A DNA stretch of 64,000 bases, taken from assembly GCA_020852275.1 (NCBI GenBank), contig JADZBE010000026.1, forward strand, positions 52,316 through 116,315, given 5' to 3'. Of the stretch, positions 58,481 through 62,566 are shown piece after piece. Every line of letters begins with the position of its first letter. Positions within the stretch are counted from its first letter, which is position 1. The notes under the pieces are model-generated. The model ran no database searches, was not told where the DNA came from, and saw nothing but the letters and a program-made list of their open reading frames with translations. A program made the position numbers and the translations under genes. This stretch comes from Phycisphaerales bacterium (GTDB lineage: Bacteria; Planctomycetota; Phycisphaerae; UBA1845).

Positions 58481-58678
58481 CAGGTTGGAAACCTGTGCCA
58501 CACCCACCGGTTGGAAACCGGTGCCACATACACAGGTTGGAAACCTGTGCTACACCCACCGGTTGGAAACCGGTGCCACATACACGGGTTGGAAACCGGT
58601 GCCACATATACCGGTTGGAAACGGGTGCCAACTACACCGGTTGGAAACCAGTGCCAACTACACCGGTTGGAAGCCGGC
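58481..58678. repeat. 26-bp tandem hairpin array, eight copies
   Basis: Units begin at 58481, 58507, 58533, 58559, 58585, 58611, 58637 and 58663, an exact 26-bp period. Each contains a short hairpin around TTGGAAA: CAGG-TTGGAAA-CCTG in copies 1 and 3, CCGG-TTGGAAA-CCGG in copies 2 and 4. The arm changes are compensatory, so the hairpin is conserved rather than the sequence. Spacer parts vary slightly (CACATACA, CACACCCA). It lies between PolX and the end of leuS. Confidence 0.9.
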
Positions 58679-58702: not shown

Positions 58703-61700
58703 TCAATTCGCCACGATGTTCACCAAGCGTCCCTTGACGGCGATCACCTTGCGCACGGTCTTGCCGGCGAGTTGCTCGCGCACCGTCGCATCGGCCAATG
58801 CGATCTGCTCCAGCGCGGATTCGTCGGCGTCTGCGGAAACCATGATTTTCGCCTTGACCTTGCCGAGAATCTGCACCGCGATTTCAACCTCATCATCACG
58901 CGCCGAGGATTCATCATACGTCGGCCACGCAAGTTGAGTGACGCTTGTGCCGCTGTCGAAGGCGGATTCCTCTCCGCGCGGCGCCTGTCCCGCCTGATGG
59001 CTCAGGAGGTCCCCGGACGCGGCCCCGCCTTCCTGCCAGATCCCCGCACGGCGCAGGCGCTCGTGCAGTTCCTCCGCCAGGTGCGGAGCAAACGGCGCGA
59101 GAATACGGAGGAACGGTTCCAAGACCAAGACCGGGCGGCGATCCATGGGCGTCAGCGCGTTCACGAAATCAAACAATCTTGCAATGGCCGTGTTGAACTT
59201 GAGGTTCTCAATGTCCTCGGTTACATGCTTGATGGTCTTGTGCAGAATCCGCAGTTGGTCCCGCGTCGGCTCGACTGTCGCCACGGCGCTCGATAGTTCG
59301 CCCGTGTCCGGTTCGACAAAGAGCCGCCAGATGCGGTTGCACAATTTGTGCAATCCGCCGACGTCGCGCGTGTTCCACGGCTTGGACGACTCCAGCGGCC
59401 CCATGAACATCTCATACAGCCGGAACGTGTCCGCGCCGTATTCCGCGATGATGTCGTCTGGATTCACCACGTTCTTGAGCGACTTGCTCATCTTGGCCAC
59501 GACCTGGGCAATAGGTCTGCCCGTCGCCTTTTCGATGAACTTGCCTTCCTCCACTTCCTCGACCTCGTCCACCGGCACGAGCGACTTGTCGGCCCTCTGG
59601 TAGGCGAACGACGTAATCAGGCCCTGGTGAAAGAGCTTGCGAAACGGCTCAAGCGTGCCCACGTGACCCAGATCAAACAGGACTTTGTGCCAGAAGCGCG
59701 CATACAATAAATGGAGCACGGCATGTTCGGAACCGCCGATGTACAAATCGACGCCGCTTCTGCCCATCCAATAGTTCTCGCACTCACGCGACGCGAATCG
59801 CTCCACGTTCTTCGGATCCCCATAGCGCAAATAATACCAGCACGATCCCGCCCAGCCCGGCATGGTGTTGGATTCACGGTGAACGCGGGTCCCGGCTGAC
59901 AATCCCAAGAGATCATTCGCGCCGGTCGCCTCGCGCACGCCCGCCGCTCCCGCCGTCGTATCCATCCACTGCGTCGCCTTGGCGAGCAGCGGCTGAGGTC
60001 GATCGCTTTCGACCGGCTGGTAATCGGCCATCTGCGGCAGGACGACCGGCAAATGCGACGGCTCGACAGGGTAGTGGTTGCCGGCCTCGTCGAAAACAAT
60101 GGGAAACGGCTCTCCCCAATATCGCTGCCGGGAGAAAAGCCAGTCGCGCAGTTTGTATTGCACGCGGCGTTTCCCCAGACTCTGCTGCTCCAGCCATTCA
60201 ATGATGCGTGATTTGGCCTCGTCGATCCTGAGTCCATTGAGAAACTCGCTGTTGATCGCCGGCCCGTCCTCCAGAAACGCCTCGCCTGCAAAACCCTCCG
60301 GCGGCTGGACCGTGCGAATCACGGGCAAGCCGAACGCATGGGCAAAGTCCCAGTCGCGCGGGTCCTGCCCCGGAACGGCCATGATCGCCCCCGTGCCATA
60401 GCTCATGAGCACATAATCCGCCGTCCAGACGGGAATTGCCTGGTGATTGGCGGGATTGATGCAATACAAGCCGGTGAACACGCCGGTCTTGGCTTTATCC
60501 GCGCCGGCCATGCGCTCCACGTCGCCGCGGTGGCGCGCCGATTCCACATACTGTCTCAGCCTGGCCGTGTCTGTTTCTGGCGCTGGATGCGCCAGCACGT
60601 GCACAACCAGTGGATGCTCCGGCGCGACAACCATGTAGGTCGCGCCGAAAATAGTGTCAGGCCGTGTCGTGAAGACGCGCAGCGAAGGCGGAACCGTAGA
60701 TGCCTGAGCTGCAGGAGCCTTGGTGGCACGGACCTCCGGGACGTGCTGCGGAGTCGAATCACAAGTCGGCGGGCGCATGCACGAAGACCATTCCGCGAAC
60801 CCTGCATCCTTGTGAACCCTCGTCCAAGGATATTCAGCCACTTTACCGCAAAGGCCAGCTTCAACAGGATTCCACACCAAGTAGTGCAGGAACTTGGAGA
60901 ACCACAACCCATCCCTGACAATGTGGTCGATCCCTTCATCCTGCCAAAGGGATCCCTTGCGGCCACGTTTCTTGTTGATCTGCGTCGCCGAAAACCGCTT
61001 GATGCTGTCCAGAATCTTGCGAAGCGTTCCATGTGCGTATGGGCGCACGATCACGTGCACATGGTCCGGCATGACACAAGCGGCGTATACACGCCAATGG
61101 CGATCATCCCAATGAAGAATGGCGCTGAGAGTTTCATCGCGCTCATGGGCATCGAGTTGCAGCCTGGAGGCGGTACACCATGTGACGAAGTAGGTGGCCC
61201 CTTCGAGTTCAAGGTGAGGCAGAGTCCGGCGGTATGTCTGCAAGTCCGGCGGGCAGGGTTGACCCTTGGGAAACGGATCACGGCATTCGAACCCGACTGG
61301 GTTCACGATGACCGGCTCGGACATGAGCACGTCCCGGAGGTCCGTGCCACCCACTTGGGGCACCGGCACGTCCCGGAGGTCCGTGTCACCCACTTGGGGC
61401 ACCAGCACGTCCCGGAGGTCCGTGTCACCCACTTGGGGCGCCGGCACGTCCCGGAGGTCCGTGTCACCCACTTGGGGCGCCGGCATGTCCCGGAGGTCCG
61501 TGTCACCCACTTGGGGCACCGGCACGTCCCGGAGGTCCGTGTCACCCACTTGGGGCGCCGGCACGTCCCGGAGGTCCGTGCCACCTGTTTCGGCCAAGGG
61601 GAAGTCAATCTCCGCGCCCTCGCTGCGGCCGATCCAGTCGATCTGCTGTGTTCGCGTGCTGTCCGGCCAATCGACGACGTTGAGACCGTCGAGCAGACGG

Positions 61701-62566
61701 TCCGCATAGGCGGTGATGCGGAACATCCACTGCTTCAGCGGCTTGCGAAACACGGGGAAGTGCCCGCGGTCTGACAGGCCGTCCGCCGTGACCTCCTCGT
61801 TCGCCAGCGCCGTGCCCAGCTTGGGGCACCAATTGACCGTCTGCTCGGCAAGGTACGCCAGGCGGTAGCTGTCGATCACCCGCCGCCGTGCGGCGCGATC
61901 GAGCGTCTGCCACGCGCCGAACTCGCGCGCCTTGTCAGTTGAGGAATACTCGGCGGCGTCCGGGTTGATTCGCGGGCGCCGCTGTCCACTTTCCAACTCG
62001 CGGACAAGTTCGTCGATGCGCCTGGCCTTGCTTTGCTCCACGTCGTACCAGGCGTTGTAGATTTCCAGGAAAATCCACTGCGTCCAGCGGTAGTAGTCCG
62101 GGTCGATGGTGGCGAACTCGCGCGACCAGTCGTAACCGAAGCCGAAGCGCTTAAGCTGCCGGCGGAAGGTGTCGATTGCGCGGCGCGTTGTGATGGCCGG
62201 GTGGACGCCGGTGGCGATGGCGTACTGCTCGGCGGGCAGCCCGAAGGCGTCCCAGCCCATCGGGTGCAGCACGTTGAAACCGCGCATCGTCTTATACCGG
62301 GCAACGATGTCCGTGGCGGTATAACCTTCCGGGTGGCCGACGTGCAGGCCGGAGCCACTGGGATAGGGAAACATGTCGAGGATGAAGAACTTGGGGCGCG
62401 AAGGGTCGAAGCCCGGCCCGCCGGGATTGGGGACGCGATACGTTCCCTGCCGCTCCCACCGCTCCTGCCACTTCGGCTCGATGACCGCGGGGTCGTAGAG
62501 ACCAGGTCTCGTCCGCGATGCGGGTCGATGGCCGGTTTCAGAATCGTCGTTTCGTGCGGCGGACAT
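58703..62566 (-). CDS. leuS: leucyl-tRNA synthetase with an in-frame RAYT insertion in the editing domain
   Basis: 1287 codons. HVGH (residues 75-78) and KMSKS (about 1024-1028) mark the class I catalytic core. Leucine-enzyme features include [46 protein letters not shown] and [19 protein letters not shown], the editing site with its Asp. About 303 codons lie between EGAEIDFPL (ends residue 324) and RVFTTRPDT (resumes at about 630), where other LeuRS have a short loop; they encode 13-residue repeats and a RAYT domain. Without the insertion the protein would be about 984 residues, plausible for the phylum. No frameshift or stop interrupts the fusion. Whether the protein is made as one chain is untested. 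Confidence 0.9.
   Translation of the reverse strand: [1287 protein letters not shown]
60722..60746. repeat. REP-C, left inverted copy of the RAYT element
   Basis: GGTGGCACGGACCTCCGGGA followed by CGTGC; identical to 22362-22386. It is coded in the leuS frame as [10 protein letters not shown]. Confidence 0.9.
61328..61594. repeat. 39-bp in-frame repeat array of REP-C, seven copies
   Basis: Units start at 61328 and then every 39 bp to 61562 (CACGTCCCGGAGGTCCGTG on plus, then TCACCCACTTGGGGCACCGG). On the minus strand each codes [13 protein letters not shown] or close variants (M for V, A for V, L for P). 39 is a multiple of three and the units contain no stop, so the leuS frame is kept. The unit consists of REP-C plus a 14-bp spacer. 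Confidence 0.95.

Follow-up and report, generated by a model that had tools for sequence, protein, structure and literature searches.

Inteins that carry homing endonucleases are parasitic coding elements with a nuclease domain, and they occupy a few recurrent sites in essential enzymes with a patchy distribution. Rickettsia palindromic elements are in-frame palindromic repeats of tens of codons, and the CP1 editing region of leucyl-tRNA synthetase (LeuRS) is known to tolerate natural insertions and splits. Known REP-associated tyrosine transposases (RAYTs), named after the repetitive extragenic palindromic sequences (REPs), are described as stand-alone genes that are present in single copy and do not copy themselves (PMC8049555); REPs have a GT(A/G)G head (Nunvar 2010, PMC2817692), are cleaved in vitro by the RAYT, or TnpA-REP (PMC8266576), and also occur inside genes, giving 'decorated' proteins, several of them of DNA repair and replication (PMC3733652). 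A family classification of RAYTs excluded proteins that were longer than expected, treating them as fusions or annotation errors (Quentin 2018, PMC6006769). Here we describe a RAYT that lies with its REPs inside the LeuRS gene, leuS, of a Phycisphaerales bacterium (assembly GCA_020852275.1), in a 64,000-nucleotide stretch of contig JADZBE010000026.1 that we call the window. No description of RAYTs inside enzymes was found among the titles and abstract openings searched, which did not include subscription papers and preprints.

A RAYT and its REPs in the frame of leuS

A preliminary description of the window had placed a RAYT and its REPs within the editing domain of leuS, with the reading frame kept. 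This was borne out: one frame of 1287 codons matches the profiles of both proteins and holds eight REP cores (Table 1). Its product scores 932.6 bits against the leuS profile TIGR00396 (cut-off 548.4) and, over residues 451-581, 87.9 bits against NF047646, the profile of REP-associated tyrosine transposases (cut-off 80); the genome-wide search gave 93 bits for the leuS RAYT with the latter. The LeuRS motifs HVGH, KMSKS and TTRPDT are all intact, as are the RAYT motifs PDHVHV (HUH) and YLVWNP (tyrosine), and a Pfam/NCBIfam search located the LeuRS editing domain at residues 628-793. When the host protein is aligned with Thermus thermophilus LeuRS (1h3n/2v0c), its residue 324 corresponds to residue 236 and the alignment restarts with 629 at 243. 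Six residues of a T. thermophilus loop thus correspond to 304 codons, close to the roughly 303 first estimated, and the replacement of a loop agrees with the tolerated position that had been proposed. The RAYT does not form an independent gene bounded by a start and a stop, as the LeuRS frame continues on both sides of it. Its best solved relative is 4er8 (TnpA-REP); the structure matches listed for the window protein are all LeuRS, with TnpA-REP absent among them, so the kinship of the RAYT rests on sequence. Because leuS was the sole copy found in the genome search (43 contigs, 96.9% complete), we infer that the insert-bearing enzyme aminoacylates and edits.

The REP core, CACGTCCCGGAGGTCCGTG, is present in seven direct copies with a 39-bp period on the N-terminal side of the RAYT and in one inverted copy across it, on the C-terminal side. 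Six of the direct units translate as TDLRDV and one, which carries one mismatch, as TDLRDM. Genome-wide we counted 53 copies at no more than two mismatches and 0 with a reversed-pattern control, so the recurrence of the core is not due to chance. By position, no leuS-type REP lies within 1 kb of the genome's other RAYTs. Together, these observations suggest that a functional synthetase probably contains the stop-less REP-RAYT-REP cassette as a translated internal domain, from which the RAYT probably still serves the REPs of the genome.

Table 1. Features of leuS and its embedded RAYT in the window
Feature	Position	Strand	Basis
leuS with embedded RAYT	58703..62566	-	single open frame, 1287 codons, no internal stop
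N-terminal section of LeuRS, residues 1-324, with HVGH at 62333-62344	61595..62566	-	1h3n/2v0c alignment ends at residue 324
Insert, residues 325-628, 304 codons	60683..61594	-	replaces T. thermophilus LeuRS residues 237-242
Seven tandem REP cores, 39-bp period; leuS-frame reading TDLRDV/TDLRDM	61328..61580	+	core search and translation
RAYT domain, hidden Markov model (HMM) envelope, residues 437-592	60791..61258	-	HMM match
HUH motif PDHVHV	61052-61069	-	inside RAYT domain
Tyrosine motif YLVWNP	60866-60883	-	inside RAYT domain
Inverted REP core; leuS-frame reading HVPEVRAT	60727..60745	-	core search and translation
C-terminal section of LeuRS, residues 629-1287 plus stop codon, with TTRPDT at 60653-60670 and KMSKS at 59480-59494	58703..60682	-	alignment; Pfam editing and anticodon-binding domains

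The idea that REPs act as adaptors, lying genome-wide in coding frames such that REP exchange keeps the frame, was rejected: of 23 REP sites inspected, two are inside the leuS insert and the rest have no consistent peptide or clear frame.

A second embedded RAYT and its distribution among relatives

The same genome has seven RAYT-like stretches, two of them inside enzymes: besides leuS, purH is a 942-codon frame with an embedded RAYT. This second RAYT is flanked by a different REP family, GTGGCAC-headed hairpins whose translation is CGTGLQPV in one flank and HRLQTGAT in the opposite one. An array of this other REP type, at about 58500-58675 (+) directly downstream of the leuS stop, reads HRLETGAT / GWKPVLH on the + strand, like the purH flanks. 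The purH locus (L010; L, G and P numbers are our labels for loci, genomes and proteins) contains a further in-frame repeat family, of LPDGRGS type, at about residues 777-849 of the protein; repeats of this type also surround the RAYT in alaS of G002.

We found a RAYT inside purH in 9 of 51 genomes of the family, from nine different genera; the PurH body was recognisable in 43 of the 51 by our own count from the listing. Both halves of PurH are in one frame in six of the nine carriers, and the contig ends at the RAYT in the other three (G025, G028, G031). For leuS, the alignment with relatives proposed in the preliminary description covered 29 loci (L013-L041), some of which (e.g. L015, L036) end short of the insertion site, and the HMM detected a RAYT domain in two. 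The congener G003 (L013) carries one at the same site as the window, with SNHVHW and the tyrosine kept, and G036 (L026), of another family, carries a different RAYT type at a different point. The RAYTs of the leuS genes of the window genome (G000) and of G003 are 52% identical versus 78% for the hosts, and the test of their sisterhood gave p 0.34 (38-row tree). A second congener, G002 (L014), has at the site a linker of about 50 residues and no RAYT; an insertion since lost may have left this linker behind as a scar. It is of low complexity and lies between GRSEG and TTRPDT.

Further hosts within the family are valS (G003), alaS (G002) and DNA methylases. The embedded RAYTs of L072 (valS, G003), L073 (alaS, G002) and L026 are of a type distant from the window's, with NHVH where the motif was seen; this type may be near class 3 of the Quentin 2018 classification (PMC6006769).

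Embedding in other enzymes

A length-free scan, in which the RAYT by itself was the query against GTDB genomes, yielded 175 relatives. The best 80 were kept as a census, and their hosts were assigned from tblastn matches of a host library and from Pfam domains. In 67 of the 80, one host gene encloses the RAYT and both of its parts are read with the RAYT in an unbroken sense frame. BLAST identified 59 of these hosts (RecG 28, AlaRS 17, LeuRS 8, ThrRS 5, CarB 1), two of the eight LeuRS loci being assigned to ValRS by another assignment, and Pfam the other eight (MetH 5, aminotransferase 1, Ham1 2). A further six loci (L223, L233, L262, L271, L272, L293) have an in-frame host on one side, with contig ends or an unchecked PriA N-terminal side; three (L222, L281, L267) have the host on both sides and an interrupted frame; and no host was found in four, with short frames (L251, L258, L270, L285). 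No antisense RAYT insertion occurs among the 80, which come from Verrucomicrobiota (65), Planctomycetota (12), and Kapaibacterium, Zixiibacteriota and an unplaced genome (1 each).

The search for LeuRS-RAYT fusions that had been suggested at the outset was made among proteins and returned the same architecture in LeuRS and many other enzymes. With the RAYT region of the 1287-residue query we obtained 63 proteins (query included) among 155 candidates of about 708-2252 aa, the hosts being AlaRS, ValRS, LeuRS, RecG, CarB, ThrRS, PurL, DnaE, PFL, PriA and a methylase; the RAYT-alone search gave 8 of 12 candidates of about 91-289 aa, the best scoring 125 bits versus 190 for the best embedded relative. 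The purH RAYT retrieved 225 proteins among 438 candidates and added IleRS and SerA as hosts, plus many PriA and PurH; by our own reading, host-enzyme Pfam domains are present in all but one (P0161) of the 120 listed. Phycisphaeraceae bacterium D3-23, whose record is not labelled as a metagenome-assembled genome, encodes P0108, a ValRS with a RAYT, on a contig of 4.62 Mb. Among 392 evenly drawn genomes of the phylum, 69 (window genome included) had matches at 1e-12. Of the five best places other than the query's own, three lie in frames of more than 1200 codons; L164 is a LeuRS, and L166 (by Pfam) and L167 (by its ends) are ValRS. The 17 genomes with a RAYT in alaS gave no second alaS; in one of them, G482, alaS is split over two contigs. 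From these results, we conclude that the leuS observation is one case of a wider phenomenon, RAYTs embedded in frame in the genes of many basic enzymes, and that the leuS RAYT lineage is mostly found embedded.

Two genomes, G469 (L245) and G476 (L278), have several embedded RAYTs each; besides alaS, they contain RAYT-only matches in frames of 848-1018 codons. Hosts seen singly are L183 (FabA-like), L169 (FAD/Oxidored_FMN), L178 (helicase), P0025 (PFL-like) and P0135 (SerA), and some of these RAYTs belong to other RAYT subfamilies. The frame of L056 begins at the RAYT and continues into another protein. We rejected L054, L057, L061, L064, L066, L074-L076 and L079-L083 as embedded, since on reading they were judged to be free RAYTs with chance frame extensions; L077 and L078 are labelled free, a doubtful label.

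REP copy numbers

The nine genomes with a RAYT in purH contain 242, 107, 18, 62, 58, 350, 324, 169 and 33 purH-type REPs, and eleven genomes without it contain 2, 0, 1, 9, 31, 29, 9, 0, 3, 0 and 0; a control pattern gave 0 in all genomes. The difference (one-sided Mann-Whitney p 1.7e-4) is a correlation, because the species are related and the eleven non-carriers were picked by us. It agrees with the report that E. coli genomes with the RAYT contain more REPINs (PMC8049555). A predicted structure model of purH-RAYT had a mean pLDDT (predicted local distance difference test) of 55 and was not used.

History of the lineage

We compared two RAYT trees, the second of which omits the long-branch rows L026, L048, L056, L072 and L073 of the first, plus L131 and L133; two further analyses were run on subsets of 38 and 14 rows. 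Host labels change 23 times on the first and second trees, against a minimum of 14 or 15, and a single clade of LeuRS RAYTs was rejected (p 2.4e-5, 38-row tree). The family's free RAYTs are mostly separate from the embedded ones (35/38 rows; 86/87; second tree). The purH RAYTs form one clade in the first tree (95/92), in the second (99/88) and weakly in the 14-row tree (61/80), but not in the 38-row tree, in which they are mixed with two methylase RAYTs. The purH hosts themselves are not monophyletic (p 5e-35), on a host tree of poor resolution with 16 of its 27 forks open. The pairing of G010 with G033, favoured by the RAYT tree, was rejected by the host data (p 0.005) in approximately unbiased tests of purH pairs that were named after the trees had been seen. 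The picture is one of a few lineages that arrive repeatedly at the same loops and are then inherited with loss.

Probable maintenance of the embedded RAYT and alternative explanations

Both histidines and the tyrosine are kept in 76 of the 77 embedded rows other than the window's, in 78 of the 80 from the census and in all 19 from the phylum; the word seeding of the search biases toward the HUH motif, not toward the tyrosine. We also estimated the ratio of nonsynonymous to synonymous substitution rates (dN/dS). For two methylase pairs it is 0.12 (dS 1.1) and 0.08 (dS 2.4) in the RAYT and 0.13-0.22 in the hosts. In the census, four host groups (53 of 80 loci) provided 19 measurable pairs with RAYT dS up to 1.5, and in eight of these, all RecG with RAYTs at least 79% identical, the RAYT ratio is 0.06-0.125 and that of the hosts, where measured, 0.03-0.11. 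An automatic filter that left six pairs gave medians of 0.30 for the RAYT versus 0.16 for the hosts. As sequence statistics, these values point to purifying selection on embedded RAYTs. In addition, flank-to-flank inverted repeats exceed the 95th percentile of swapped-flank controls at 69 of 85 loci, a test that excludes the four loci without a host and those with flanks below 200 bases.

Essential genes can keep only frame-preserving insertions, and the loci could therefore be the in-frame survivors of random RAYT insertion, each an inert, decaying domain whose frame is kept for the host. Some RAYTs are indeed much more diverged than their hosts, as in the G000 and G003 leuS genes and in L236/L249 (53% identity versus 77-85% for the host), a divergence that fits replacement or faster evolution. 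The near-complete retention of the catalytic residues, the low dN/dS of close pairs, the amplified REP families and the dominance of the embedded set by one RAYT lineage all argue against such a tolerated passenger, which we consider unlikely. Long persistence under purifying selection could equally reflect recruitment of the domain by the enzyme or cell, for regulation or nucleic-acid binding, such that transposition no longer matters; RAYTs are generally held to be domesticated (PMC8049555). This host co-option is distinctly unlikely, as the domain is common to very different hosts, its sites are patchy even between congeners and its REP flanks remain intact.

The insert might instead be removed, through excision of the DNA, splicing at the RNA or protein level or proteolysis, or be bypassed if the RAYT is translated separately from the ATG at 61324. 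Excision is conceivable because the RAYT belongs to the HUH single-strand nuclease family; we found no other point in favour. No intron RNA (group I or II, IStron) was matched in Rfam at E up to 1 within 60400-61900, and no intein-type or Hint splicing domain is among the Pfam and NCBIfam matches of the window protein. Independent translation of the RAYT from ATG 61324, one of three outcomes envisaged in the preliminary description, is without support, as no Shine-Dalgarno-like stretch stands in the sequence just before that codon. The frame through the insert is also preserved in 67 of 80 census loci, which would not be needed if the insert were removed. We regard removal as very unlikely, and among the three outcomes a fused enzyme-transposase is the best fit. 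Finally, an assembly chimera or binning error is scarcely credible: the genomes are mostly fragmented bins and contigs end at the RAYT in three of nine purH carriers, but the architecture recurs across many assemblies of independent origin, including a congener's and the long D3-23 contig, the window's leuS has a continuous frame and equal GC content (62.1% over 60688..61594 versus 62.5% in the remaining leuS), and the finding of one leuS likewise makes a second, uninserted copy unlikely.

Discussion

Our results favour a cassette that sits in frame at the LeuRS editing-domain loop and would be translated with the synthetase, the REP-encoded peptides perhaps acting as flexible tethers. While fused, the RAYT would cut and join single-stranded REP DNA. 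Embedding may aid its persistence: translation has to pass through the RAYT to reach the second half of an essential enzyme, so that frameshifts and stops in the RAYT would be purged along with their carriers. Such a lineage would seldom move between permissive loops, and the form that moves was probably stop-less already, because a stop would truncate the host protein. We tentatively advance, as a serious possibility, that these cassettes represent an undescribed class of elements, 'coding REPtrons': a stop-less RAYT lineage specialised to essential enzymes that would move only as an in-frame insertion domain, arrive at the same loops in different lineages in a homing-like manner, and act as a transposase while fused, the cell being unable to discard its frame without loss of the enzyme. 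Such elements would be intein-like, without splicing.

Several results weigh against the reading of an embedded cassette that acts while fused. The argument that an essential gene locks the element in place is incomplete, because restriction-type DNA methylases, which are not essential, are frequent hosts (L060, L063, L070, L071, L172 and PF06634 proteins). The 67 of 80 census loci embedded in frame come from members selected by similarity to the leuS RAYT, the interrupted frames of L222, L281 and L267 reflect decay or sequencing error, and the family's RAYTs of other types are mostly free, lying in frames of normal RAYT length. Most other copies of the leuS-type REP are without a clear coding frame. 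Within our chosen sample of related species, the non-carriers G030 (31 REPs) and G034 (29) stand above the carrier G010 (18). The RAYT dN/dS is 0.19-0.42 in the 11 more diverged of the 19 census pairs, and dS is at least 0.7 throughout the measured pairs.

The benefit and persistence of RAYTs are seen as unexplained (PMC8049555), and the embedded lineage offers a testable answer: an indispensable enzyme carries the transposase, and the host's own need polices its frame. If true, essential proteins would host one more kind of coding parasite in addition to inteins and in-frame palindromic repeats; a foreign DNA nuclease domain could be carried by synthetases, purine enzymes and helicases, and, for coding REPtrons, each copy of the host protein would double as a transposase. 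Annotation is affected as well. Databases name such a PurH 'transposase' and an AlaRS 'alanyl-tRNA synthetase/REP element-mobilizing transposase RayT', and the family classification set long proteins aside (PMC6006769).

The embedded RAYT resembles known RAYTs and REPtrons in its HUH and tyrosine core, its inverted flanking REPs with a GTGG head and the dispersal of REPs in the genome; it differs in that its frame has no stop, begins in another protein and runs on into it. With 'decorated' proteins (PMC3733652) and the Rickettsia elements it shares in-frame palindromic repeats that do not destroy the gene, but theirs are repeats of tens of codons, whereas here a transposase is inserted too. 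The natural insertions and splits of LeuRS CP1, including the Aquifex subunit alpha structures, are similar in that an interrupted editing region is tolerated, and they differ in having neither a transposase nor REP repeats. As in inteins, an in-frame nuclease lies in essential enzymes at few recurrent sites with a patchy distribution. Unlike inteins, however, the embedded RAYT has no splicing domain among those found, its insert is predicted to stay in the protein, its sites are loops rather than active-site motifs, and its nuclease is an HUH/Y1 enzyme.
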